In this document: piece by piece, positions 11,238 to 26,070 of the stretch
Layout of the letters: every line of letters starts with the position of its first letter
How positions within the stretch are numbered: position 1 is the stretch's first letter
DNA from: Methanococcoides alaskense
GTDB taxonomy: Archaea > Halobacteriota > Methanosarcinia > Methanosarcinales > Methanosarcinaceae
Assembly: GCF_027594145.1 (NCBI RefSeq)
Contig: NZ_JAQFFK010000003.1
Location: 620,001 to 684,000 of the forward strand
Direction: 5' to 3'
DNA length: 64,000 nt
Notes under the pieces: generated by a model
Told to the model about the DNA's origin: nothing
Seen by the model: the letters and a program-made list of their open reading frames with translations, nothing else
Database searches by the model: none
Made by a program: the position numbers and the translations under genes

Positions 11238-11744
11238 ATGAGAGTTTCAATGGACATTGAATTAAAGGACACTCCAGGACAATTGCTTCTGGCTTTGGAT
11301 CCGATTTCGGAGCTAAAAGGGAACTTGAAATCGATCGTGCATCATCATGAAGAACGAACTCCAAGAAGTGCCATTCCGGTACAGCTTGTTTTTGAGATAG
11401 AACCAGCCAATCTTGAGGTCCTTATAGGTCGTCTTAAAGAGAATGGAATTGGTGTTGCAAGGGTTGATGAGAAGCGTTTCACAGCACATGGTGCTGTCCT
11501 CCTGATAGGTCATATAGTTCATACTGATATACAGGATACTATTGATACTATTGATAATACCGGCTTTGCAGAGGTCGTGAACATTTCTCTTTCAATGCCG
11601 CAGATAGACATGCGTTCTTCTGCTTCCTTAAAGATAGATGCTGTGGGTAAGAATGAGCTTCATGAAGCGATATCAGTCCTTAGGCAGGTCGCGATCAAGA
11701 AGGATCTTCTGGTCATAGAACCAATTGAAGCTGAAATTTCATAA
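11238..11744 (+). CDS. ACT-domain protein, probable regulator of homoserine/threonine synthesis
   Basis: About 168 residues, opening MRVSMDIELKDTPGQLL and containing two ACT-like modules: one around residues 1-85 with HHHEERTPRS, and one in the C-terminal half with ALVLIGHIVHTDIQDTID-like strands. An upstream ATG at 11220 is also in frame, but the GAGGG site at 11228-11232 points to ATG 11238. A TATA-like TTTATATG at 11208-11215 is the probable promoter. The gene sits 12 bases before homoserine dehydrogenase, so feedback sensing of aspartate-family amino acids is a reasonable inference. Confidence 0.72.
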   Translation: MRVSMDIELKDTPGQLLLALDPISELKGNLKSIVHHHEERTPRSAIPVQLVFEIEPANLEVLIGRLKENGIGVARVDEKRFTAHGAVLLIGHIVHTDIQDTIDTIDNTGFAEVVNISLSMPQIDMRSSASLKIDAVGKNELHEAISVLRQVAIKKDLLVIEPIEAEIS

Positions 11745-11756
11745 AGGTGATATTCA

Positions 11757-12752
11757 ATGAGAAAAGTACGTGCATCCATTATTGGATTTGGTTCAGTTGG
11801 ACAGGGTGTTGCAGAGGTCCTTCTGAGAAAGGATGAAGAATTAAAGTCTCTTGGTATCGACCTCGACGTTGTGGCCATCGCTGATTCCAAAGGCGCTGAG
11901 GTAAATGTTGCTGGTATCGATCTTAAAGCTGCACTTGGCAGAAAGCGGGAATTCGGTACTGTTGCTATCGATGATCTTACTGGGGAAGATGTCATCAAAA
12001 GTGTGGACCATGACATTGTGATCGAGACCACTCCTACCGATATAGAGACCGGTGGTATCGGCCTTGTTAACATGGTTGCTGCTTTTGAGTTTGGCAGACA
12101 TGTGGTGACCTCTAATAAAGGTCCTCTTGCGTTGAAATATCGGGAACTTGTCGAAGCTGCGAAGGAAGCTGACCGTAAGTTGCTCTTTGAGGCGACCGTC
12201 GGCGGTGCGATGCCTATCATCAATCTTGTGAGAGATACGCTTGCCGGAAATGAGATAATCAGTGTGGAAGGTATCCTTAACGGTACATGTAATTACATTC
12301 TGACACGTATGATGGAAGAGCATGCTTCATATGAGCAGATGCTTGCGGAGTCACAGGAGCTTGGTATTGCTGAGACCGACCCTACATATGATGTGGAAGG
12401 TATCGACACGGCATGTAAACTTGTCATTCTTGCAAATTCCATATTCGATCAGGATGCAACCTATCAGGATGTGGATGTTACCGGAATTACCAAAGTAACT
12501 CTGGAATCTCTTTCTCTTGCCCATGATGAAGGCTATGTAATCAAGCTTATAGGTGAGGTCAAGAAGGATCGTCTTCGTGTTTCACCACGCCTTGTACCGG
12601 TATCCCATCCTCTGGCTGTGGGCGGTACGTTGAACGTTGCATCGGTGTGTACCGATCTTGCAGGGACCATTACGGTTACAGGCAGGGGTGCAGGTTCTAT
12701 TGAGACTGCAAGTGCTATCTTGAGCGATATTATATCCATCTACAAGGACTGA
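11757..12752 (+). CDS. hom: Homoserine dehydrogenase
   Basis: A 331-residue NAD(P)-dependent oxidoreductase that makes homoserine from aspartate semialdehyde for threonine and methionine synthesis. The Rossmann motif [14 protein letters not shown] is at residues 11-24. Catalytic-domain motifs follow: [10 protein letters not shown] (about 120), [10 protein letters not shown] (about 145), [15 protein letters not shown] (about 170) and [15 protein letters not shown] (about 205). There is no C-terminal ACT domain, consistent with a separate ACT protein encoded just upstream. DNA ligase follows after 43 bases. Confidence 0.93.
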
Positions 12753-12795
12753 TGGCGATCTGATTACCAGATGGGAACGACAGGAAATTTTACTC

Positions 12796-14481
12796 ATGAC
12801 CGATTTCAAGGAATTCGCTGATGTTTGTAAACAGATCGAACATATCTCAAGTTCACTGGAGATGACAGATGTTGTCTCGGATATGTTAAAGTCGGTATCT
12901 ACAGAGGAACTTCCTGTTGTGACCCATTTTGTGATGGGGGATGTTTTTCCTGCATGGAGTGTTGAACAGCTTGGCGTGGGTACGAGTCTACTGTATGGTG
13001 CCCTTTCGAGATCATCCGGTCTTTCCCTGAAAGACATTGAGGACCTTGTCCGTTCCACAGGCGATATAGGTGAAACTGCGGTAGCGGCACTTGGAAAACA
13101 GAAAAAGAACCAGTCTACATTCTCTGCATTCATGGGTGAAGATCCTTCCATCTCTATAATGGATGTCTTTGATCGGTTCCTTGATATTTCCAGATCATCA
13201 GGCGCAGGTTCACAGAGTAATAAGATGAGGAACTTGCAATTCCTTTTCAATTCATCCAGCTCTGAAGAAGCACGTTATCTTGCCCGACTGGCGATCGAGG
13301 ACCTTCGCATTGGTGTTGGTGAAGGGATCGTTCGTGATGCTATCTCTAAGGCTTTCGATGTTCCGGCAGGGGAGATAGAACGTGGGTTTATGGTGACCAA
13401 CGATCTGGGTCTTGTGGCAGTTGCTGCAAAAGAGGGTGGCATTGAGGAGATCTCAAAGCTCAGGATGGAGCTTGACCGTCCGATAAAGATGATGCTGGCA
13501 CAGGTTACTCCGAGCATCGAGGCTGCTATAAAGGACCTTGGTATGCTTGCTATCGAGTGGAAGTTCGATGGTGCAAGGGTTCAAATTCATAAGAATGGGG
13601 AATCGGTCAACATCTTTTCGAGGAGACTTGAGAATGTGACACTATCTCTGCCGGATATCGTTGAGGCAGTGAAGCTCCATGTGAAGGCGGATTCTGCCAT
13701 TCTGGAGGGTGAGGCTGTAGCGGTCGATGAGACTGGAGCTCCTCGTGCCTTCCAGGATATACTCAAACGCTTCAGGAGAAAGTATGACGTTGAGGCAATG
13801 GTTCGTGAGATCCCTCTTACGTTGAACCTCTTCGATATTCTCTATCTTAATGGAGAGGTATTGATGGACCAATCTCTTTTAAGAAGAAGGGAACAACTGG
13901 TCTCCTGTGTGGATAACTGTGAGAGTATCAAGGTGGATGAGCAGGTTCTCACAGATGATGAGAAAGTTGTGAACGAGATATATGCTGCTGCGTTGAAGGG
14001 TGGACATGAAGGAGTCATGCTAAAGAACCCGGAAGCTTCTTATTCTCCAGGCAAGCGGGGTAAGAACTGGCTCAAGAAGAAGCCTATAATGGAGACACTC
14101 GACCTCGTTGTCATTGGTGCGGAATGGGGTTATGGGAAGCGTGCAAATCTTATCGGTTCTTATGCTCTGGCATGTCATGACCCGGAAGATGGAACATTCC
14201 TTCCGATCGGCAAAGTGGCTACAGGTTTTTCAGATGAGCAACTTGTTGAGCTTACTGAGGTCTTCTCTGAGCTCATTGTTGGTGAATCCGGTCGGGAGAT
14301 CGAACTTAAACCTGATGTGGTGTTCGAGATCGCCTTCGAGGAGATCCAGAAAAGTACGAACTATGGTTCAGGGTATGCTCTCCGTTTCCCCCGGCTTGTA
14401 AATGTGAGGGAAGATAAATCTCCGGAAGAGGCTGAAACGATAGATCGTATCGAGAGCATCTATTTATCACAGAGAGGCTAA
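12796..14481 (+). CDS. lig: ATP-dependent DNA ligase
   Basis: A 561-residue archaeal replicative-type ligase. The N-terminal DNA-binding domain (1-210) includes [11 protein letters not shown] and [12 protein letters not shown]. The nucleotidyltransferase motif [14 protein letters not shown] carries the AMP-accepting Lys (about residue 255). Motif III is SRRLENVT, motif IIIa LFDILYLNG, motif [10 protein letters not shown] and motif V WLKKKP. The OB-fold domain ends the protein with [20 protein letters not shown]. It is probably cotranscribed with hom. A hairpin terminator follows immediately, and the mobile segment begins 25 bases past the stop. Confidence 0.95.
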
Positions 14482-14501
14482 ATCCTTTTTTTTAAAAGGA
14501 T
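14482..14501 (+). terminator. Hairpin/T-run terminator after lig
   Basis: ATCCTTTT and AAAAGGAT form an 8-bp stem directly after the lig stop, including a run of eight T. The 8-bp target duplication of the downstream mobile segment (14499-14506) overlaps the 3' edge of this stem. Confidence 0.6.
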
Positions 14502-14506
14502 GTTTC

Positions 14507-14576
14507 GGCTCTGTAGAAAACGTCTCAAAATCCACATCCTTAGACTGGAATTGAGATTATAATCCAATATCGTGCA
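14507..14576 (+). repeat. Left IS-derived element (inverted copy of 20962-21093)
   Basis: Starting with the 14-base terminus, this stretch aligns to the reverse complement of the right element, including ACTGGAATT, AGATTA and AATCCAAT in the same order and spacing. Its inner end is not recognisable, so it may be truncated. Confidence 0.65.
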
Positions 14577-14652
14577 CCACATTCAATAATATTTTTAAAT
14601 TTGATCATTGTCCGAATGGAGTGGGTGCAAAATATTGCAATCCGTTATTTTA

Positions 14653-14835
14653 TTATGCTTTAAGAGCTACCAGTGAAAGACCCAGTTTCTTTTGCAGATC
14701 CTTTACTTCTTTAGCATCGTCTTCATTTAAGTCTGCATACACTATTTTTTTCACCTGAAAAAGCAATTAAGGTTATACCGAATTTGCTTTCTAGATAAGT
14801 GATAGCTTTCAGATTGCCGGTGTCTATTTTTAAAT
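14653..14835 (-). pseudogene. Decayed small gene of unknown family
   Basis: Two adjacent reading frames on the minus strand look like parts of one protein. The upstream part reads ITYLESKFGITLIAFSGEK in one frame. The downstream part, 14653-14754, reads IVYADLNEDDAKEVKDLQKK, then LGLSLVALKA and a stop, in another frame. A single frameshift near 14750 would join them. The downstream half could be translated alone from GTG 14754 (33 residues, preceded by AGG). Not recognised. The region 14836-15250 holds nothing else convincing, apart from a plus-strand fragment near 14950-15060 with an in-frame TAG that may be another remnant. Confidence 0.4.
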
Positions 14836-15260
14836 AACTCCACATTTTTAAAACCGCCAATATAATCTAAATTCGATTAGCTAATATATGATTTCTCTGA
14901 ACTATTCATAAATATAATTAGTCTCATATACATCAGTTGGCAAACATTAATACTCATAAAATAGTAGATATTGTCTCTGTTGATCGTAAGAACCATGCTT
15001 TTCTCGAATAGTACTTTGCAAAATATGAAGCAGGATTCCAAAATTGCATGTTCGTTTTATGAATTTCCTTGACCTCAACCTTTTGATTATATTTCTATTG
15101 AAGTATGGGCGAATTCTCTGTGGTTTTTGAATATATATATCGATGTCTCTAATTTTTCACACCCATTCGAACAAATTTTAATTATTTTCATTTTGCTGCA
15201 TCACCTATTCTACAAATTTCTAGCGTCACAGTGTTAATACGAAAGTTTATATTTAATCCA

Positions 15261-15352
15261 TTTAGTATTACGTTTTAATAAATAAGTAACACTAAAAATA
15301 AGTAATATTTATAAAAATATTACTTATCGGTATTACTAAATGTGTACTTATT
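15261..15352. promoter_or_regulatory. Nested palindromic operator upstream of the metal-uptake operon
   Basis: The core is a perfect 30-base palindrome at 15298-15327: a 13-base arm ATAAGTAATATTT, a 4-base loop ATAA, and the exact reverse complement. Outer imperfect arms extend it: TTTAGTATTAC (15261-15271) pairs with GTATTACTAAA (15330-15340), and AATAAGTAACAC pairs with GTGTACTTATT (15341-15351). Repeated half-sites of the type AGTATTAC/AAGTAATA suggest cooperative binding of a dimeric regulator. It lies 45 bases before the first gene, so it probably controls the operon. A metal-dependent repressor is my inference from the operon content. Confidence 0.6.
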
Positions 15353-15396
15353 AAAAAATCATCATAAATTTATTCTCTAATTAGTGGTGTGATATT

Positions 15397-16248
15397 ATGA
15401 ATAATAATTCGGTTGATTGGAATATGGTCTGGACAGAAATGATGCAGGCCAATCAGAAGGCAGACCATCAGGAACGTGGTGACTGTGCAAAGCTATGGGA
15501 TAGCAGGGAGAACGCAGAACGCTTCTGGAAGAGGTCTCAGAAAAATAAGGGAAGGATCGAAAAGACATTGAAAGAACTTCCTATAAAGAAAGGCTCCAGA
15601 GTGCTGGATATTGGGTCTGGTCCCGGAAGTCTGGCAATACCTCTTTCAGAGAAAGTGGCTCATGTAACTGCTGTCGAGCCTGGAAAAGGTATGATGGAAC
15701 TTCTGCAGGAGAATATAAGCAAGTATGGAATAAACAATATTAGCTGTGTCAACAAGAGGTGGGAAGACCTGAATGTTGAAGATGACCTGGAAGGTCCTTA
15801 TGATATTGTAATTGCCTCCTTTTCACTTGGTATGCCTGATATAAGGAATGCAATAGAAAAAATGCAAAGTGCGTCTTCAGGGCATGTATGCCTTTATTGG
15901 TTTGCAGGTGAAACACCATGGGAAGCCCATTCCTACAATCTGTGGCCGGCCATGTATGGAATGGAATATAGTCCCGGTCCCAAGTGTGATGTACTTTACA
16001 ATCTGCTCTATAGTATGGGTATCTTTCCGGATATGCATGTATTCCCACTTGAATTCACTAATGATTTTGGTTCAATGGATGAAGCCATCGATTATTTTAG
16101 ATCCCGCTATACTATCGATACAGAACAACAGGAAATGATACTCAGGAATTATCTGGAGGAAACACTGGAGCAGCAGGACGGGCAGTTTGTAGACCATGGT
16201 CATTCTACCAGAGTAAAGATCTGGTGGGAAAAGGAAGTGATCGATTGA
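15397..16248 (+). CDS. Class I SAM-dependent methyltransferase, first gene of the metal-uptake operon
   Basis: A 283-residue methyltransferase. Motif I is VLDIGSGPGSLAIPLSE (about residues 68-84), the acidic post-I residue is in VTAVEPGKGMMELL, and motif IV is YDIVIASFSLGM (about 130). The N-terminal 65 residues include DCAKLWDSRENAERFW, a segment often seen in methyltransferases encoded beside methanogen iron/cobalamin-type ABC transporters. The substrate is unknown; a small metal-binding ligand or corrinoid-related molecule is possible from context. The stop overlaps the next gene's TTG start as TTGA, so translation is coupled. Confidence 0.75.
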   Translation: MNNNSVDWNMVWTEMMQANQKADHQERGDCAKLWDSRENAERFWKRSQKNKGRIEKTLKELPIKKGSRVLDIGSGPGSLAIPLSEKVAHVTAVEPGKGMMELLQENISKYGINNISCVNKRWEDLNVEDDLEGPYDIVIASFSLGMPDIRNAIEKMQSASSGHVCLYWFAGETPWEAHSYNLWPAMYGMEYSPGPKCDVLYNLLYSMGIFPDMHVFPLEFTNDFGSMDEAIDYFRSRYTIDTEQQEMILRNYLEETLEQQDGQFVDHGHSTRVKIWWEKEVID

Positions 16249-17008
16249 AAACTCTGCTCTGTGGAAAAGGTGGTAGTGGCAAAAGCACGCTTACTGCCTT
16301 AATTGCAAGATCCCTGTCTGAAAGGGGTTGCAATGTCCTAGTTATAGATAACGATGAATCCAATTTCGGTCTGCACATGCAAATGGGTTTGGAATTGCCA
16401 GATGATCTCTTGAACTTCTTAGGGGGAAAGAAAAACCTTGTCGGGAAAATGATGGAAGCTTTTCCAAAGGGTGAAAAACTCAGCCTGTTCGATCATAAAT
16501 GGAAAATATCGACTATACCGGAAGGTTATGTCACCAGAAAAGGAAATCTCTCTTTGGTGGCAGTTGGAAAGATCCATGAATTCGGAGAGGGTTGTGCATG
16601 TCCGATGGGTGCTCTTGCAAAACAGCTGATACAGAACATAGAACTAGGTGAGAACGAGTTTGTTCTTGTTGATACTGAAGCTGGGATCGAACACTTTGGC
16701 CGGGGTGTGGAAGAAGGCTGTGACGTTATTTTCATGGTGGCAGATCCTTCCTATGAATCCATACGTCTTTCTGAAAAGATCAGTAAGCTTGCAGACAATG
16801 CCGGAAAACAGCTCTACTATATACTGAACAGGGCTGAAGGAGCAAGCAGGGAGATATTATCTTGTGGGATTCCGAAGACAGGGTGATCTCTACTGTTCCT
16901 ATCCATGAGTCCATCTTCAAAGCCGGTCTTCTCGGAGATGAGTTTCATATCTCTGTTCCTGAGGTGGAGATGATCGCTGATTTTTTGATAGAACATAAGT
17001 TGAAATAA
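16245..17008 (+). pseudogene. CooC-like nickel-insertion ATPase, frameshifted near 16860
   Basis: The first ~205 codons read as a MinD/CooC-type P-loop ATPase: KGGSGKST (deviant Walker A, residues 8-15), VLVIDNDESN, the CooC-type cysteine pair EGCACPMG (near 116), and VLVDTEAGIEHFGRG (near 145). CooC proteins load nickel into CO dehydrogenase. The frame stops at TGA 16884-16886, but the expected C-terminus continues in another frame to a TAA at 17006-17008: RVISTVPIHESIF, then VEMIADFLIEHKLK. A single indel near 16855-16865 (around TCTTGTGGGATT) explains this. It could be real inactivation, programmed shifting or a sequence error. TTG 16245 is preferred because GGAAGTGA lies upstream. Confidence 0.75.
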
Positions 17009-17044
17009 AGTTTCAAAATTCTGTATAACTTTTGGAGAATTCCA

Positions 17045-17659
17045 ATGAAAGTAAACATATCTATTATCTATTTCGCTCTGCTCATGCTTGCAGGGTCTGC
17101 ATTCTCACCCGTTGCTCTTGCTATGGATGGGAATACTATGGAGATTACACGCAATGTTCCTTCCAGCTTACCATTCGGAGAGACCGTTGAAATAACACTG
17201 GAAATTACAGGCGAGACTCCTTTTATGGTTGGTATTGTAGAGACTATACCTGAAGGTTTCTCTTTTCCTGAAGATGATCCTGATGTTTCGGATGCAATTT
17301 ATTTCAGGGTTGACAGAAATACCGGCAAGATCGCTTTTTCTGTGAGTGATGAAGATGAGCTCACATACAGAGTGATCCCTTCTGGAGCTGAAGGAAGTTC
17401 CTTTGAAGGATATTGGGTTGATATGCTTTTCCAGACCCAGGAACTCAACGAAGGTAAGGAGAGATGGGTTCCGATCACAGATCCGAATGCAGATCCGGCT
17501 ACATTCTCTGCTTCAGCTGGTGATCCATCTGTTTCAGAAGAGCCGGATTACGCTTCGACTTCAGAGGCACCGGGTTTTGGATCATTGATGGGTTCATTGG
17601 CGATTATTGGCAGCTTGCTTGTTTTCAGGAGATCTAATTCCCGAGGCGATATAAAATGA
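17045..17659 (+). CDS. PGF-CTERM surface-anchored protein
   Basis: A 204-residue exported protein. It has a signal peptide (residues 1-27, ending ALA), then an extracellular beta-rich, acidic domain (about 30-165) of the kind that resembles cohesin or NEAT-like sandwiches, then a Ser/Glu/Pro linker. The tail is PGFGSLMGSLAIIGSLLVFRR. PGF, a hydrophobic helix and RR together form a PGF-CTERM sorting signal, which archaeosortase A cleaves and replaces with a lipid anchor. The stop overlaps the next start as ATGA. Sitting before the binding protein, it may hand a ligand to it or organise the transporter at the S-layer side; this is inference. Confidence 0.75.
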   Translation: MKVNISIIYFALLMLAGSAFSPVALAMDGNTMEITRNVPSSLPFGETVEITLEITGETPFMVGIVETIPEGFSFPEDDPDVSDAIYFRVDRNTGKIAFSVSDEDELTYRVIPSGAEGSSFEGYWVDMLFQTQELNEGKERWVPITDPNADPATFSASAGDPSVSEEPDYASTSEAPGFGSLMGSLAIIGSLLVFRRSNSRGDIK

Positions 17660-18936
17660 GAATAAGATCAAAGTTTCTATCTGGAACATTAATGCTTACA
17701 TGCTTACTTGTTTCAGTCATGACTGCAGCAGCGTTACCCTCAACTCTTCCATGTGATGACGGTGATGGTATACTTACTGAAAAGGAGGTTTCAGATGCAG
17801 TATGTGATTACATGCTCGTCGATAGTTCTTATTCACTCGATGATGTAGGCGATGCTTCATACATGCTTATTTTCTGGAACGGTAAAGCAAAAACAGTAAC
17901 TGATACTCATGACCGGAAAGTTACTTTCTACAGACCCATTGAGAGAATTATCACTACCAATCCCGATAATTCCAGAATGATAATTGCTCTTGGTGACCTT
18001 GATAAAATAGTTGCTACTGATGAATGTACATGTTTCGGATGTATATTGCCACGAGACGAAAATGATGAGAAAATAGCAGTGAATTCATGGGAAGCTCTCC
18101 AGATATATGATGGAGGTCAGCTTGATGATTTCCCGGAGACAAATACTCGCAAAGAGATCGATTATGAAACCATGGCAATACTTAGACCAGATGTAGTTTT
18201 CGATGCAACCTGGTACAACAGAGGAGATCTGATAGAAGAGAAGGTAGGTTGTCCATGTGTTGATGCAGGTGCAGGTTTTACTTTTGTTGAAAGCTATGAG
18301 CACATCCGAATGATGGGGAATGTTCTGGATGAGCAGAAAAGAGCTGATGAACTGGAGAATTATGTCCGTTCAAAGGTTGATATGATCGAATCCGTGACAT
18401 CACAGATCGATGATAGTGATAAACCAATAGTCTATTTCGCACCCCGAGGTGCTAATAAAGGTTTCTATGACGCAGTTGAAGGAAGGGATTTTACTCGTAC
18501 AGAATCAGTTTATGAGCCATTGGACATTGCAGGTGGCATAAATGTTGCAAATGATTGCACAGGCGAGAATATTAATGTTCCAGCAGAGCAGATCGTTGCG
18601 TGGGAGCCGGAATATATCTTTGTCGCATGGTCATCCACTTCATCGTTGGGTGAACCAAACGGTGTCGATTTTGTAATGGAGACCGCTGAACTTTCAGAGA
18701 TCCCTGCTGTACGCAATAATGATGTCTATGCCTGCATCTATCCATACTGCAGAGGTAGACCTCTGGACAGGAGCCTTTTGAATATGATGTACATGGCAAA
18801 ATGCTTGCATCCAGAAGAGTTCAGTGCCCTTGACATGGAAGCAGAAGGAAATGAGGTCTATAGGCAAATTCTGGGAATTGATGGTGTTTATACAGAATTG
18901 GCAGAATATCAGCCTTTCCTGATAGAAGTAAATTGA
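17656..18936 (+). CDS. ABC transporter substrate-binding protein with EF-hand-like N-terminus
   Basis: A 426-residue exported periplasmic-binding-type protein (FecB/BtuF family). After the signal peptide (1-27) comes a calcium-loop-like DGDGILTEKEVSDAV (about 37-51). The binding fold includes PIERIITTNPDNSRMIIALG (about 95-114), a middle helix region, and EQIVAWEPEYIFVAWSS in the second lobe. Unusual features are the cysteines CTCFGC (about 117-122), CPC (about 199) and IYPYCRG (about 360), which could contact a metal or be disulfide-linked. It delivers a ligand to the FecCD-type permease encoded next. Iron-, nickel- or cobalt-chelate cannot be distinguished by eye. Confidence 0.8.
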   Translation: MRIRSKFLSGTLMLTCLLVSVMTAAALPSTLPCDDGDGILTEKEVSDAVCDYMLVDSSYSLDDVGDASYMLIFWNGKAKTVTDTHDRKVTFYRPIERIITTNPDNSRMIIALGDLDKIVATDECTCFGCILPRDENDEKIAVNSWEALQIYDGGQLDDFPETNTRKEIDYETMAILRPDVVFDATWYNRGDLIEEKVGCPCVDAGAGFTFVESYEHIRMMGNVLDEQKRADELENYVRSKVDMIESVTSQIDDSDKPIVYFAPRGANKGFYDAVEGRDFTRTESVYEPLDIAGGINVANDCTGENINVPAEQIVAWEPEYIFVAWSSTSSLGEPNGVDFVMETAELSEIPAVRNNDVYACIYPYCRGRPLDRSLLNMMYMAKCLHPEEFSALDMEAEGNEVYRQILGIDGVYTELAEYQPFLIEVN

Positions 18937-19035
18937 GACAGTCTGTTTACTGGAACATGAACTTGTGGAGGATATGTGGCTGTAACCTTTGAAGTTTCAG
19001 CGATTAGAACCTCCTTTTCCCAAAAAGGTGATAAT

Positions 19036-20157
19036 ATGCAAAATCCTTTTAAAAAACAACAGAATGTCAAGTCGGAAAATATTGAAAGTTCCTGGACGAA
19101 CAAGAATACTCAGGTAAGGGAAGGTTACCAGCGTTATGTCGGGAAAAAAATGTTTTTCCTTTTTTCAATGTTAGTTCTGGTAATTTTTCTTTCAGCTTTT
19201 ATCATTACGATCGGTCCACTCGAGATATCAGTTACAGAAGTCTATAAAATATTACTTTCCAGCTTGTTCCCAGATTATTTCACTAATGAAGGACTGACTT
19301 CACAAATCGTATGGAATATCCGTCTTCCACGTATTATTGCGGGTATAATGGCGGGGTTCGGGTTGGGAGTATGCGGATGTGTAATGCAGGCAGTTCTTAA
19401 AAATCCACTGGCAAGTCCATTCACTCTTGGTATTTCTTCAGGTGCTAATTTCGGTGTAGCTGTCGCAGCTGTAATGGGTGTGGGTGTAATAGGAGGTCCG
19501 TACCTGCTGGTGGGAAATGCCTTCCTTTTTTCAATGCTGTGTGCATTGTTCATAATTGCTCTTGCAAATTTTAAAGGTGCAACTTCTGAAACCCTGATAC
19601 TTGCAGGAATTGCGATAAACTATCTATTCAGCTCTCTCAGTGACTTGTGCCGTTATTTCGCTACGGATGAACAGTTGAGAATAATGGTCAGCTGGGGTAT
19701 GGGGGACCTTTCTGCTTTTTCATGGAGTAATTTCTCAATTCTGCTTGGTGTCTTTGTTTTCTGTACTCCTTTACTTTATCTGAAGGCAAATGATCTCAAC
19801 ATAATGGCAATAGGTGATGAAAATGCAAAAAGTCTTGGTATAGATACAAATCGGGTTAGAATGTTCACTATGCTTCTTGCAAGTCTTCTGATAGCTACGG
19901 TTGTTTGCTTTACAGGCACGATTGCTTTTATAGGATTGGTTGCACCCCACATGGCACGTATGGTGGTAGGTTCGGACCACAAATATCTGTTCCCTGCCTC
20001 TGGAATACTTGGAGCTCTCATACTGATATCAGCAGATGCTACTGGTTTGAACCTATTGAGGCCCACAATGATACCGACCGGCATTATGACCTCTCTGCTT
20101 GGAGTTCCGTTCTTCATGTATCTTATACTTAAAAAGAAAAAGAAGGAGTTCTGGTAA
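19036..20157 (+). CDS. FecCD/BtuC-type ABC transporter permease
   Basis: About 373 residues with some ten hydrophobic helices. Family motifs include WNIRLPRIIAGIMAGFGLGVCG (from about residue 95), QAVLKNPLASPFTLGISSGA (about 118-137), the ATPase-coupling loop near GMGDLSAFSW, and FIGLVAPHMARMVVGSDH (about 298-315). The 50-residue N-terminal cytoplasmic extension is rich in Lys/Gln/Asn and longer than usual. A GTG at 18976 is open, but AAAGGTGATA precedes ATG 19036, which I chose. It forms a translocator with the ATPase that starts one base past its stop. Confidence 0.88.
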   Translation: MQNPFKKQQNVKSENIESSWTNKNTQVREGYQRYVGKKMFFLFSMLVLVIFLSAFIITIGPLEISVTEVYKILLSSLFPDYFTNEGLTSQIVWNIRLPRIIAGIMAGFGLGVCGCVMQAVLKNPLASPFTLGISSGANFGVAVAAVMGVGVIGGPYLLVGNAFLFSMLCALFIIALANFKGATSETLILAGIAINYLFSSLSDLCRYFATDEQLRIMVSWGMGDLSAFSWSNFSILLGVFVFCTPLLYLKANDLNIMAIGDENAKSLGIDTNRVRMFTMLLASLLIATVVCFTGTIAFIGLVAPHMARMVVGSDHKYLFPASGILGALILISADATGLNLLRPTMIPTGIMTSLLGVPFFMYLILKKKKKEFW

Positions 20158-20158
20158 T

Positions 20159-20947
20159 ATGGTGAAGATAAAGATTAAGGATATGTGTTTTGGCTATGCC
20201 AGTACACCAATATTGGAAAATGTATCGGTTGATATCTATGGGTCAAGTTTTGTGAGCATTGTGGGTCCTAATGGGGCTGGTAAATCAACCATGCTCAAAT
20301 GTATCAACAAAATATTAGTGCCGGATTCCGGCGATATACACATTGATGGATATAATTTAAAGAACATGAAACGGATGGAAGTTGCCAAGAATATTGCTTA
20401 CGTACCTCAGAGTTCGAACAGGGTTTTTCCCACGACGGTCTTCGAAACGGTTCTAATGGGAAGAAGGCCACATATTGGCTGGTTCAGTAATGAAAAAGAT
20501 ATCGAAAAAGTCTGGCAGGTCCTTGAGGAGATGGGAATTGAGGATATTGCATTGAGTAGTTTCGATGAATTGAGCGGGGGACAGCAACAAAAGATCCTCA
20601 TTGCAAGGGCACTGGCACAAGATACAGGTGCTATTCTTCTTGATGAACCCACTAGTAATCTGGATATATGGCATCAGTTGGACGTTATGGAGAATGTGCA
20701 AAGACTTGTAAAAGTAAAAAAGGTTACAGCTATAATGGCTGTACATGACCTTAATCTGGCTTCCAGATATTCAGATCAGATATTGATGATGAAGGATGGT
20801 AAAGTAGTTTCTGCAGGAACACCTGCTCAGGTACTTACTACTGAGAACATAGCAAAGGTCTACGAAGTTGAAGCACATGTGCACAACTATGGAGAAACGC
20901 CTTATGTTATGCCTCTTAAGCAACTTGGTATGAGGGCAATTACATAA
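20159..20947 (+). CDS. FecE/BtuD-type ABC transporter ATPase
   Basis: About 262 residues. Walker A is GPNGAGKST (about 37-45), the Q-loop is YVPQSS (about 82), the signature is LSGGQQQK (about 139), Walker B is AILLDEPTSNLD (about 158) and the switch His is in AVHDLNLA (about 193). It drives uptake through the FecCD-type permease. An upstream in-frame start at 20099 lies inside the permease gene; AAGGAG at 20140-20147 supports ATG 20159. It is the last gene of the operon; the right IS-derived end begins 15 bases after its stop. Confidence 0.9.
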   Translation: MVKIKIKDMCFGYASTPILENVSVDIYGSSFVSIVGPNGAGKSTMLKCINKILVPDSGDIHIDGYNLKNMKRMEVAKNIAYVPQSSNRVFPTTVFETVLMGRRPHIGWFSNEKDIEKVWQVLEEMGIEDIALSSFDELSGGQQQKILIARALAQDTGAILLDEPTSNLDIWHQLDVMENVQRLVKVKKVTAIMAVHDLNLASRYSDQILMMKDGKVVSAGTPAQVLTTENIAKVYEVEAHVHNYGETPYVMPLKQLGMRAIT

Positions 20948-20961
20948 AATAGAATGTTTTG

Positions 20962-21093
20962 GGCTCTGTAGAAATCCTTAATATTCGAATCACAATCGGA
21001 TCTAATAACTTTATCTAATATGTTGGACGAGATTGGATTCTAATCTTAATTCCAGTTTATAGATGTTTATTTATATCGGTTTTCTACAAAGCC
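20962..21093 (-). repeat. Right IS-derived element, 132 bp with inverted ends (MITE-like)
   Basis: It begins GGCTCTGTAGAAATCCTT and ends GGTTTTCTACAAAGCC, forming terminal inverted repeats of the IS5-family type around about 100 AT-rich non-coding bases. Its reverse complement aligns to the left end at 14507-14576. It looks like a MITE mobilised by the transposase of the related IS. Confidence 0.6.
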
Positions 21094-21184
21094 TAAAAGA
21101 AGTGAAGTTAAAAGTATTGATACACAACCTTGACAGGTATGTCAAGATTGTGCGTTTAGTTCATTTGAGGATTTCTACAAAGCC
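21094..21184 (+). pseudogene. 3' end of an IS5-family transposase gene (remnant)
   Basis: This stretch matches the last 90 bases of the intact IS at 23559-24556 closely. It encodes LIHNLDRYVKIV in the transposase frame, followed by the right terminus GAGGATTTCTACAAAGCC. The rest of the element is missing. It forms the right outer end of the 6.7-kb segment. Confidence 0.7.
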
Positions 21185-21215
21185 GATGTTTCTTCTTAAA
21201 ATAAGTTAAGCTGAG

Positions 21216-22460
21216 TTAACGCCCCAGCTCTGCGTGTGCTTTTGCCAGATGTCCGGCTGCTTGTGCTCCTATCAGTGATATTTCACCTGCAAGGACTGCA
21301 GCGGCGATTATCTCTGCCAGTTTCTTCGAATTATGCCCGGGCACCTCTCCTGCTCCTGCAACTCCCAGCAGGTTAAGGCAGTCTCTCTGGGTGGCTATGC
21401 CTGTTCCGCCTCCAACGGTTCCGACCTGTATTGACGGGAGGGTGACGGAACAGTAAAGGTCTCCGTTCTCATTTACTTCCATTGTTGTTATGGCACTACT
21501 TCCCTCTACAACATGGGCAGCATCCTGGCCGCATGCCAGATAGAGTGCTGCGATAATGTTTGCTGCATGGGCATTGAATCCTAGGGCACCTGCCCTTGCT
21601 GAACCCAGCAGATTCTTCCTGTAATTGACCTCTTCCATCATCTTCGGGGTGGTCTTCAGTTTCTTCTCCACGATCTCCTTTGGAATTGTAACGTCTGCAG
21701 CAACGGTCTTTCCCCTGCCAAGTATATTGTTGATGGCAGCCGGTTTTTTGTCGGTGCACATGTTGCCTGAAAGTGAGATCGGGTAAACTCCGAATTCCTC
21801 TGAGATAAAGTTGAGCACAGCATCGGTGGCAATGGTTACCATGTTCATTCCCATTGCGTCCTTGGTGTCATAGGCAAACCTTAGGAATACAGTATTCCCT
21901 GTGATGAATGGATCTACACTGAGCAGTTCTCCGAAACGTGTGGTTTCGCCTGCTTTCTCTTTCATATTTGTGAAAGTTTCCGGTTCTTTTACCCAATCCA
22001 CAAAGTCCTTTACCTTGTTCACATTGTCCAGTTTGAATACCGGAGCACGGGTCATGAGGTCCTGGAATATCCTTACATTTGAACCGCCGGAAGCTGTGAT
22101 CACTGTACATCCACGGTTGACGCTTGCTACGAGTGCTCCTTCAGTGGTTGCAAGGGGAAGCGTGAAGTCTCCGTTGGCATATTCACCATTTACTTTTAAA
22201 GCACCTGCAACACCAAGAGGGATCTGTATGGTTCCTATCATGTTCTCGATGTTGCGTTTGGTGGCTGCTTCAGCATCGATCGTATAGTTTTGTATGTGCT
22301 CGAACTTAACTCCCTTCATCTTCTCAATGGCACATTTTCGAACCCTTACAGCTGTATCAGTGTCGGTATATGCATCTATTTTTCGGAGTGGCATTTCTCC
22401 TGAGATGACCTTTTCAAGCAATTCATCTTCTTTCATTGTGGTTTCGGTTTTTGATGCCAT
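21216..22460 (-). CDS. hmgA: 3-hydroxy-3-methylglutaryl-CoA reductase
   Basis: About 414 residues; it makes mevalonate for archaeal isoprenoid lipids. Class I features are IENMIGTIQIPLGVAG (near 50-65), the substrate segment NRGCTVITASGG, the NADPH-binding DAMGMNMVTIATDAVL (near 190), SGNMCTDKKPAA (near 220), HAANIIAALYLACGQDAAHVVEG (from about 290) and GTVGGGTGIATQRDCL (near 345). An upstream ATG at 22499 is open, but GGGAAC before ATG 22460 and normal family length favour the shorter form. It appears to have been the convergent neighbour of lig before the mobile segment inserted. Confidence 0.95.
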   Translation of the reverse strand: MASKTETTMKEDELLEKVISGEMPLRKIDAYTDTDTAVRVRKCAIEKMKGVKFEHIQNYTIDAEAATKRNIENMIGTIQIPLGVAGALKVNGEYANGDFTLPLATTEGALVASVNRGCTVITASGGSNVRIFQDLMTRAPVFKLDNVNKVKDFVDWVKEPETFTNMKEKAGETTRFGELLSVDPFITGNTVFLRFAYDTKDAMGMNMVTIATDAVLNFISEEFGVYPISLSGNMCTDKKPAAINNILGRGKTVAADVTIPKEIVEKKLKTTPKMMEEVNYRKNLLGSARAGALGFNAHAANIIAALYLACGQDAAHVVEGSSAITTMEVNENGDLYCSVTLPSIQVGTVGGGTGIATQRDCLNLLGVAGAGEVPGHNSKKLAEIIAAAVLAGEISLIGAQAAGHLAKAHAELGR

Positions 22461-22911
22461 TAGTGTTCCCTGCAATATTATTTTTTTAGAATGTATCAAT
22501 TGTGTGATGAATTATCGAGTGGTATTGAACCTGGTCAAAAATTTATAATGAACCAGTATTATCTGAATCCATTATGGTGCTTCCTGCTTATATGTTTTGG
22601 TGGCACTTATATATTATTATATTACAAACGGTATCCTTATACGTCTTAGCATTTTTATTTTCATTTACTATAAATACGTATATGGGCTGTGGATTAATTC
22701 TGATGAAGATGATTACTATCTAAATTCTTGTAGATGATCTTAAATACAAAAATGCCACTTATTTTATGGTTATCATATATAGGATATTGGTGGAATATTG
22801 GGGAATTATGTATTTTTGAATGATCTTTATGTGGCGTTCAGGAATGGTATTACCTGTTATTTTTGTACCATGTTCAACAATTTGAAAACGTGTTTAAATG
22901 GGTGTTATTGT
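22461..22911. promoter_or_regulatory. Divergent promoter region of hmgA
   Basis: About 450 AT-rich bases (TATA-like runs near 22600-22630 and 22665-22680) with no convincing gene. It should hold the hmgA promoter on the minus strand and that of the hypothetical gene at 22912 on the plus strand. Confidence 0.4.
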
Positions 22912-23558: not shown

Positions 23559-24556
23559 GGCTCTGTAGAAATCCTCTTTCCTAACCCCAATTGACACATA
23601 ATTTTTATAATAATAAGTCCCCTGTGTGTGTTCGTCCAAAAACCACAAGGGGATGATACTGTTTTGTCTAACAAGTACTTAAAATTTATCGATATCGCTC
23701 TACAAATGACAAGATATTCACGTTTATCGCTTTATAGCTGCAAATATTCTAAGAAAACCTACACACAACATCAGCTATTGTCACTGGTTTTGTTTAAAGA
23801 CTATTTAAATGAAGATTATCGAGATTTTGTTGATCTTATTAAAATCATGGATTCTGTCCAATCGAAACTCGAATTAACTAAAGTACCACATTATACTACA
23901 CTTCAAAAATTTGTCAGCCGATTTTACTCAGTAATACTTGATCGTATATTCAAGAGAACATTGGATCTATTTTACAATAAAGGCGATTCAATTCAAGTTA
24001 CTGCAATTGATTCCACTGGCTTTACGAGCGGGTATTGTAGTCGGTATTATTCCAAGAGAATAGGGAAATGGAGGCATAGTTTCATAAAAACCAGTATTTC
24101 AGTCGATGTTACTAAATTTATCGTAACTGGGTACAAGATATCTGGCAAACCTGTTCACGATGCAAAACATGCAAGGACATTGCTTTAGCAATCTCATCAC
24201 AATAGAAGATCAAAATATTATGTGATGGATAAGGCATATGACTCTGAGAAAATTCATGAATTGACGAGGGAAAAACTCGGATCAATAGCAATTGTTCCAC
24301 TTCGACAACGTAAAAGAAAAAGCATCAAGGGAAGATATAGAAAGAAAATGGTGCATGAATTTGATGATAAAATATATCCTCTGCGAAATCTGAGTGAAAC
24401 GATGTTTTCAGTATTGAAAAGGAGATATGGAGAGAACTTACGTGCAAGAAAGTATAGAAATCAAGTGAAAGAAGTAAAATTCAAAGTGATATTACACAAT
24501 CTTGACAAGTATGTCAAGACTGTGTTTTTTGTTTGGATGAGGATTTCTACAGAGCC
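23559..24556 (+). mobile_element. Complete IS5-family (ISH1-group-like) insertion sequence, 998 bp
   Basis: Perfect 18-bp terminal inverted repeats, GGCTCTGTAGAAATCCTC at 23559-23576 and its complement at 24539-24556, are flanked by the identical 8-bp target duplication AATTTTGT (23551-23558 and 24557-24564). The size of about 1 kb, a single DDE transposase and 8-bp duplications agree with the ISH1 group of IS5. The perfect repeats and duplication indicate a recent insertion. The element family is also represented by the ends of the 6.7-kb segment and its inner remnants. Confidence 0.92.
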
Positions 24557-24590: not shown

Positions 24591-24671
24591 TACAACTTAG
24601 AACACAACATCTATATATCATAATTTAATCTACATCATAGTACTTATTTGTGCATTATATGAGGAATATCT

Positions 24672-25976
24672 ATGGAACCGACTAAGATCCTACTTGATGA
24701 AAACGAGATGCCAAAAAAATGGTATAATATCCTTCCGGATATGCCCACTCCATTGGCTCCTCCACTTAATCCTGCAAACAATGAACCACTGGCACCAGAG
24801 GACCTTGCTCCTCTTTTCCCGATGGAGCTCATTAAACAGGAAATGAGCAGTGAGAGATACATTGATATTCCGGAAGAGGTTCTTGAAATATACAAGCTCT
24901 GGAGACCGGCTCCTTTATACCGTGCACACAGGCTTGAAAAATTACTTGACACACCTGCAAAGATCTACTACAAGTATGAGGGTGTCAGTCCTGCAGGCAG
25001 TCACAAACCAAATACTTCTGTTGCACAGGCTTACTATAATATGAAGGAAGGCACAGAGAGGATAACCACCGAGACCGGAGCTGGTCAGTGGGGCAGTGCA
25101 CTTTCACTTAGCTGTAATTATTTTGATATCGAATGTAAGGTCTACATGGTACGCTCAAGCTTCGAGCAGAAACCATACCGTAAATCCCTGATCAATCTCT
25201 GGGGTGCAACGGTAGTACCTTCGCCAAGTCCTGATACTGAGTTCGGACGTCACATGCTTGAGAAATATCCGGACACTGCAGGCAGTCTTGGTATTGCTAT
25301 TGGAGAAGCTGTAGAGGATGCTGTGAAGCACGACAATACCAAATATGCCCTTGGCAGTGTGCTCAACCACGTCATGTTGCATCAGACAGTTATAGGTCTT
25401 GAAGCCCAGAAACAGCTCGATAAGGTCGAGGAATATCCCGATATAGTTATCGGTTGCTGTGGTGGCGGAAGTAACCTCGCAGGTATCAGCCTTCCATACA
25501 TGAGGGATAAGATCGAGGGCACCCATGATCCACGTATCATCGCTGTGGAACCGTCTGCCTGTCCAACCCTTTGTGACGGCAAGTTCCAGTATGACTATGG
25601 GGACATGGCAAAACTGACCCCTCTCCTTAAGATGTATTCACTCGGATACGATTTCATGCCACCTGCCATCCATGCAGGGGGCTTAAGATACCACGGTTGC
25701 TCACCGATAATCAGTCAGTTGACCGCAGATAAACTCATGGAAGCTACCAGCTATCATCAGATCGAGGTATTCGAAGCAGGCGTCATGTTCGCTCGCAGTG
25801 AAGGTATTCCACCAGCACCAGAGTCAAACCATGCTATCAAATGCGCTATCGATGAGGCTCTTAAGTGCAAGCAGACCGGAGAAGAGAAAACCATCCTGTT
25901 CTGCCTTAGCGGACACGGTCATTTCGATATGTATTCCTACGACAAGTATTTCAGTGGTGGACTCAGCAACGAATGA
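24672..25976 (+). CDS. trpB2: Tryptophan synthase beta chain, TrpB2 type
   Basis: A 434-residue PLP enzyme converting indole plus serine to tryptophan. The PLP lysine lies in the [17 protein letters not shown] segment (about residues 103-119), the phosphate-binding loop is [11 protein letters not shown] (about 259-269), and [18 protein letters not shown] closes the fold. The length and the N-terminal extension with [14 protein letters not shown] identify the TrpB2 subfamily, which usually stands outside the trp operon, as here. The IS lies about 115 bases upstream, so its promoter (AT-rich 24590-24650) is close to the insertion but looks intact. A palindrome at 25987-26001 follows. Confidence 0.93.
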
Positions 25977-25986
25977 TCCGGGAAAG

Positions 25987-26001
25987 CGGCTTTTAAAGCC
26001 G
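25987..26001. terminator. Hairpin after trpB2
   Basis: CGGCTTTTAAAGCCG is a perfect palindromic stem about 10 bases past the stop, followed by T-rich sequence near 26009-26025. It may serve both trpB2 and the convergent nth gene. Confidence 0.5.
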
Positions 26002-26070
26002 TATTCCTCATACTTTCTTTTTTACTTTGCAACCTTATTGCGGAAAGTTTCTTTTTAAAAGATGTGATCT

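Follow-up and report, generated by a model that had tools for sequence, protein, structure and literature searches.

Composite (compound) transposons such as Tn5 and Tn10 are bounded by insertion sequences (IS), and in the IS5 family the ISH1 group produces 8-bp duplications. Here we describe a 6.7-kb insert in the genome of the methanogen Methanococcoides alaskense, which lies at 14507–21184 of a 64,000-nucleotide stretch referred to as the window (contig NZ_JAQFFK010000003.1, positions 620,001 to 684,000) between lig (12796–14481) and hmgA (21216–22499, minus strand), and which carries an operon for a putative metal-uptake system. The sequence comparisons make it very probable that this insert is a decayed non-autonomous composite transposon, the locus with its operon having later been passed between species. 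It resembles Tn5 and Tn10 in having its cargo between related elements, in the apparent use of the outermost inverted repeats, in a duplication of the length seen in the family and in an inner flank derived from the donor locus, but differs from them in its non-autonomous and unequal ends, the lack of a recognised transposase inside, the archaeal host, and a transport rather than a resistance cargo.

Integrons flanked by miniature inverted-repeat transposable elements (MITEs) have been described from Acinetobacter along with other MITE-mobilised genes, with the transposase acting in trans in at least one case (PMC10969869). The likeness to the unit described here is that MITEs flank and move the cargo, but those elements are identical and carry bacterial integrons, whereas in Methanococcoides the ends are unequal and the cargo is a chromosomal ATP-binding cassette (ABC) operon of a methanogen. 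No composite transposon in archaea with MITEs, or in methanogens, was found among the matches listed from the open-licence literature (titles and the openings of abstracts).

Our comparisons were made with a sample of eleven Methanococcoides genomes (G000–G010), in which G000 is the genome containing the window (1.97 Mb and rated 77% complete, with the window in its contig 3), G005 is a second carrier of the insert (an assembly of 2,575,032 bases, with the insert in the stretch L106) and G009 is M. seepicolus LLY. The 8-bp sequence GATGTTTC is found directly outside both ends of the insert, as a preliminary description of the window had noted, and lies flush against GGCTCTGTAGAAA on the left (from 14507) and TTTCTACAAAGCC on the right (ending at 21184), with a random flush 8-mer match having p ~2e-5 at this base composition. 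At both ends the outermost bases form inverted terminal repeats that belong to the family of a 998-bp IS located at 23559. The site and its bounding elements are as follows:

14499..14506, no strand: left target-site duplication GATGTTTC, a repeat flush with the end and present as a single copy at the empty sites of G002 and G008
14507..14618, plus strand: outer 112 bp of the left bounding MITE, with the inner ~20 bp deleted in G000 (complete at 132 bp in G005, L106:2251–2382)
20962..21093, minus strand: complete 132-bp MITE of the left-end family, inverted and without a duplication of its own, located by a search of the same genome
21094..21184, plus strand: 91-bp 3' end of an IS of the same family forming the right outer terminus, identified by sequence comparison
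21185..21192, no strand: right target-site duplication GATGTTTC, a repeat flush with the end and a single copy at the empty sites
23559..24556, plus strand: 998-bp IS of the same family with its own 8-bp duplication AATTTTGT and a transposase frame with one TAG

The gap between lig and hmgA is 46–110 bp in nine of the eleven genomes and is occupied by the insert in the other two (G000 and G005), in agreement with the earlier expectation that joining the flanks would restore two adjacent genes. At their empty sites G002 and G008 both have AAGGATGTTTCCTC, which contains one uninterrupted GATGTTTC, and G009 has GGATGTGCCCTC with one GATGTGCC. A further six empty sites (G001, G003, G004, G006, G007 and G010) belong to a distant clade, and because their intergenic sequence is different they show gene adjacency only. 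The single-copy sites are direct evidence for insertion and, together with the same unit in G005, they support the proposal that the operon entered a single GATGTTTC site as a transposon-like unit. The base composition of the island, which was to have been compared with the flanks, is uninformative, as its guanine plus cytosine fraction of 0.37–0.43 per kb lies inside the range of the window (0.32–0.50) and does not set it apart.

The outer ends had been taken to be the two termini of the IS at 23559, and while the family is indeed the same, the left end is part of a MITE and the right end is a MITE joined to a 91-bp IS end. When the insert was used to search its own genome, the left end (14501–14617) matched a MITE family of 131–132 bp, of which other copies in G000 have the duplications GGATAATG, CATATTTG and the one-mismatch pair GATGGATG/AATGGATG. 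As these and AATTTTGT are all 8 bp long and differ from one another, the family has a duplication length of 8 bp and no fixed target sequence. Searches for the IS and the MITE family covered ten of the eleven genomes (G010 was left out) and returned, with short repeat-end matches included in the counts, 12 MITE-family matches in G000, 10 in G002, at least 30 in G005, at least 11 in G008 and at least 18 in G009, and only 1–3 each in G001, G003, G004, G006 and G007. In both carriers the cargo sits between two related elements, these being in G000 the 112 bp of MITE and the MITE plus IS end, and in G005 the MITE at 2251–2382 and a 458-bp element at 11551–12008 (L106 positions). We refer to the unit as non-autonomous, working like a composite transposon, because neither bounding element has a recognised transposase.

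A candidate source of transposase is represented by an IS copy with an uninterrupted frame at C6 of G000 (flanks CAAATGTT). The IS at 23559 is missing from the corresponding place in G008, G009 and G002. It resembles the IS5 family in its DDE_Tnp_1 domain (PF01609, 71.2 bits against a cut-off of 23 with the TAG read through), its length of 998 bp, its 8-bp duplication and an IS5-type NCBIfam match, but the last of these scores 107.7 for the first 186 residues and is below the curated cut-off of 140. It was initially regarded as intact, and is structurally whole but has the in-frame TAG at 24186–24188, where other copies have TCG (Ser), AAG or TTG. The same codon is TAG in an IS fragment next to the operon in G006 (L116:2274–2942); this fragment may or may not be the same IS as in G000 and G005, from which it differs in the sequence of its flank. 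Read-through of the TAG is possible, since the pyrrolysine users that have been listed include M. burtonii, and transposases with pyrrolysine have been annotated in M. acetivorans (PMC3639795).

The same operon with the same left end occurs at the same base of the lig–hmgA gap in G005, but with a different right structure, and the earlier suggestion to look for the operon with the same ends elsewhere is borne out by this copy. The G005 insert is 9.8 kb and has GATGTTTT outside its left end and GATGTTCC outside its right end, so that the target duplication is mutated in this genome. From left to right it consists of the complete 132-bp MITE, array DNA, a surface-layer (S-layer) domain gene and the six operon genes, then a terminal repeat where G000 has its inner right MITE, a 1.9-kb stretch of broken open reading frames (ORFs; beta-helix-type by eye) and finally the 458-bp element. 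A second copy of the 458-bp element, 454 bp in length, is located near 488.8 kb in G005 with flanks GAAGATCG and GAAGATAA, which agree at six of eight bases. The sequence GAAAATACAAAA inside the left MITE (L106:2383–2394) resembles, in inverted form, the sequence before the internal repeat of the 458-bp element (11930–11941), but the resemblance is probably due to chance because the second copy has that sequence too.

The DNA immediately inside the left MITE bears on how the unit arose, and can be described as:

14620..15178, no strand: donor-locus DNA, a small-gene-array remnant inside the left MITE, 86% to G008 C4:162913–163464

The G005 copy (L106 2384–3015) is colinear with, and 88% identical to, the same G008 stretch (L173:12838–13465, where L173 is the C4 stretch of G008), and its first part is colinear with G003 C8; both matches begin at the first bases past the MITE. 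At the G005 junction the MITE ends ACAGAGCC and is followed by GAAAATACAAAAGTATTC, giving the inner flank GAAAATAC, whereas the donor loci of G008 (ATTGAAAAATTCAAAAGTATTC) and G003 (ATTGAAAAATACAAAAGTATTC) run on without a MITE. As the donor locus is uninterrupted in these two genomes, the MITE first inserted beside the small-gene array and later moved with the DNA to its right, although a donor-derived inner flank is established on the left side only. A 72-aa gene (MWSYSKIDTENLKAINELESKLGI...) has dispersed and tandem copies in the genus (L173:4101–4460 and 12202–13465 in G008 C4; G009 C149, C24 and C18; and G000 C1:507711–508086).

These comparisons suggest the following course of events. 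In an ancestor within the Methanococcoides group that includes G000 and G005, a MITE would have inserted at the edge of the small-gene array beside the uptake operon, and related IS-derived elements would have come to lie downstream of the operon. A full IS belonging to this family presumably provided a transposase in trans, which may then have used the two outermost terminal repeats to place the MITE, donor DNA, operon and right element as a unit in the lig–hmgA gap, by either a cut-and-paste or a copy mode, with duplication of GATGTTTC. Exchange of the loaded locus among species would have followed, for which homologous recombination via the flanking genes is the simplest route, as the synonymous divergence (dS) and flank tree discussed below suggest, and the G000 cargo would afterwards have decayed by deletions and a frameshift.

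The preliminary description had offered the alternative that the operon entered an IS already resident at this site, either by MITE–MITE recombination or by nested insertion. The nesting of MITEs with IS fragments on the right and the abundance of homologous MITEs speak for this alternative, but we regard it as very doubtful because the complete left MITE of G005 has an inner flank from the donor locus rather than a second GATGTTTC, where a lone MITE insertion at lig–hmgA would have left the duplication on both sides of the MITE. A crossover between MITEs should also have left the same orientation and sequence at both ends, but on the right the sequence is different and derives from an IS. The donor junction is the most telling evidence against an earlier residence of a MITE or IS at lig–hmgA, and the joint movement of MITE, donor DNA and operon as one unit would fit the locus better than entry of the operon into a resident element. 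It is rather unlikely that a single insertion in the common ancestor of G000, G005, G008, G002 and G009 was inherited vertically and precisely lost from the last three. The shared site and left MITE of G000 and G005 agree with this, as does the weak branching support (50–60% in a lig+hmgA tree, and 50% for G000+G008 in the flank tree), but several precise losses would be needed under the flank tree, and the dS of the island is about threefold below that of the flanks and also below that of G000–G008. If sister copies had transposed separately into one and the same base, this would account for the differing right structures, but the varied duplications (GGATAATG, CATATTTG, AATTTTGT and GATGGATG/AATGGATG) point to no fixed target, and an identical base and orientation reached twice make this extremely improbable.

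Transfer of the loaded locus between species is likely, and is the simplest reading of these sequences, because the island copies are closer to each other than their flanks although G005 branches outside three relatives with empty sites. The flank tree was constructed from 14 concatenated flanking genes (a 16.1-kb alignment, with four missing in G008 and two in G006) and has the form ((((G000,G008),G002),G009),G005) with support of 50, 96 and 93%, placing G005 outside G000, G008, G002 and G009 with 93% support, and the island is confined to G000 and G005. Between these two the dS of six island genes is 0.037–0.175 (median ~0.09) compared with 0.115–0.647 (median 0.306) for 19 flanking genes (p = 0.0002), and the island median of 0.0945 is also lower than the G000–G008 median of 0.187 for 15 genes (p = 0.008). 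In this set the window gene at 1346–2254 was dropped to leave 19 (dN, the non-synonymous divergence, was 0.79 and dS not computable), genes without a match covering 60% were left blank, and the G000 CooC-like gene was used here and in the trees only up to its frameshift. In the other clade the dS of the operon genes is broadly like that of lig and hmgA, with part of the genes lower (0.59–1.06 vs 0.78–0.87 for G006–G007, 0.59–0.98 vs 0.92–0.99 for G006–G010, and 0.09–0.39 vs 0.21–0.25 for G007–G010), and for this reason slow synonymous change alone is unlikely to explain a threefold drop, though it is possible gene by gene.

A number of observations weigh against the transposition and later transfer of a single unit. 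No transposase gene was recognised inside either island, where the IS matches are limited to the 91-bp end in G000 with none in G005. On the right, where G000 has a MITE and the 91-bp IS end and G005 has 1.96 kb ending in the 458-bp element, the two inserts share only the inner start and the outermost repeat, and because of this difference the right end must have been rearranged after insertion in G000, G005 or both. A donor site from which the unit had gone was not found: in G005 the ABC locus is rearranged, lacks the array beside it and shows no terminal repeat or scar, and this locus has no match in G000, which is 77% complete. Site patterns gave no clear recombination tract joining G000 and G005 in the left flank, and in the right flank there are 11 vs 19 differences in 21193–21942 and 36 vs 19 in 21943–22460 (p = 0.013, with the boundary set post hoc), so that the right flank beside the island fits a later exchange weakly; the hmgA of G005 is also fairly close to those of G008, G009 and G002 (dS of 0.14–0.20).

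The cargo consists of the following features:

15176..15360, plus strand: upstream region of the original operon, 76–79% to stretches of G006, G009 and G004
15397..16248, plus strand: class I S-adenosylmethionine-dependent methyltransferase (profile matches)
16245..16886, plus strand: CooC-like P-loop ATPase with a CxC motif, truncated by a 1-bp deletion near 16870 (261 aa in G005)
17045..17659, plus strand: secreted protein with no Pfam or NCBIfam match and a PGF-CTERM-like C-terminus by eye
17656..18936, plus strand: substrate-binding protein, Peripla_BP_2 (profile matches)
18976..20157, plus strand: FecCD/BtuC-type permease (profile matches)
20159..20947, plus strand: ABC ATPase, FecE/BtuD-like (profile matches)

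The operon had been described as complete, but compared with G005 three losses are seen in the G000 insert, namely those of the inner end of its left MITE (14618/14620), an S-layer-type gene of ~1.25 kb found in relatives (15358/15361) and one base of the CooC-like gene, which is frameshifted as a result. Both the S-layer-type gene at the head of the operon (with a PF07752 domain in G005) and a full-length CooC-like gene are present in G005, G006, G007 and G010, and as the last three have both, the losses are placed on the G000 side, though the 1-bp deletion may be an assembly error.

The full-length G005 protein has MinD-type P-loop ATPase and CxC metal-site features, and its best solved relative is the nickel-insertion ATPase CooC (3kje; E 3e-17, residues 9–241, with the CxC pair aligned), from which it differs in being part of a FecCD-type transporter operon and in its truncation in G000. 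No carbon monoxide dehydrogenase (CODH) gene was recognised among the operon ORFs of G000 and G005. Our best guess, inferred from these similarities, is that the cargo takes up a chelate of nickel or of some other metal and hands the metal to the CooC-type ATPase. Uptake of a corrinoid or haem-like tetrapyrrole instead of a nickel or iron chelate is a possibility that we hold tentatively: models for vitamin B12, F420-0, haem and iron match the permease and ATPase, each with a score under the curated NCBIfam cut-off, and the methyltransferase has weak matches to CbiT and CpaM, but the best solved relative of the CooC-like protein belongs to a CODH system and the best match of the binding protein is an entry labelled iron(III), with nickel-labelled entries weak, although neither fixes the ligand. 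The predicted structure of the binding protein was of too low quality for use (mean predicted local distance difference test score of 37).

The cluster of methyltransferase, CooC-like ATPase, secreted protein, Peripla_BP_2, FecCD and ABC ATPase genes recurs in other Methanosarcinaceae, as seen from seven further loci (L120, L138–L141, L083 and L086), two of which are short stretches that cannot display the whole cluster; there is no CooC-like ORF in L120 (G017) and no methyltransferase ORF in L141, beside a stretch of N. Amongst the eleven Methanococcoides genomes, a close binding protein (82–100%) is found in G000, G005, G006, G007 and G010 and a 72% one in G009, with matches of 28–35% at best, or none, in the remaining five. 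In the M. seepicolus stretch (G009 C123, L140), two transporters of the operon kind and three such methyltransferase paralogues are found together in one large cluster, as if transporters and methyltransferases go together.

Within the genus the operon is located between lig and hmgA (G000 and G005), beside a PAS histidine kinase (G006), between glyS- and aroA'-like genes (G007) and beside the same aroA'-like gene (G010; names by eye). The operon tree places G000+G005 as sister to G006+(G007,G010) with 100% support, and this topology does not show transfer between clades, for which the evidence is in branch lengths and dS. The G000–G006 branch length is ~0.20 for the operon vs 0.48 for lig+hmgA, the G006–G007 values being ~0.21 vs 0.20, and between-clade dS is 0.42–0.72 for the operon vs 1.6–1.9 for lig and hmgA, which suggests that the operon had crossed between the two main clades earlier. 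It is conceivable, though we would not favour it strongly, that the CooC-linked metal-scavenging operon is a recurrent mobile cassette of Methanococcoides, found in three places and having crossed clades, with IS/MITE ends mobilised in trans by an IS of the host. Elsewhere in the window, a trpB-like gene region (by eye; 24597–26028) is 92% identical to the distant-clade G006, with neighbouring stretches at ~69–79%, which suggests a recent exchange of this gene.

The lig–hmgA insert provides a well-dissected archaeal case with a target site, empty sites, a donor junction and a second carrier, in which non-coding remnants of transposons would have carried an entire uptake operon of several genes to a new site, with an apparent later spread of the locus among species. 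With such a case the idea can be tested that MITEs act as vehicles for metabolic genes in methanogens, beyond the resistance genes of bacteria.

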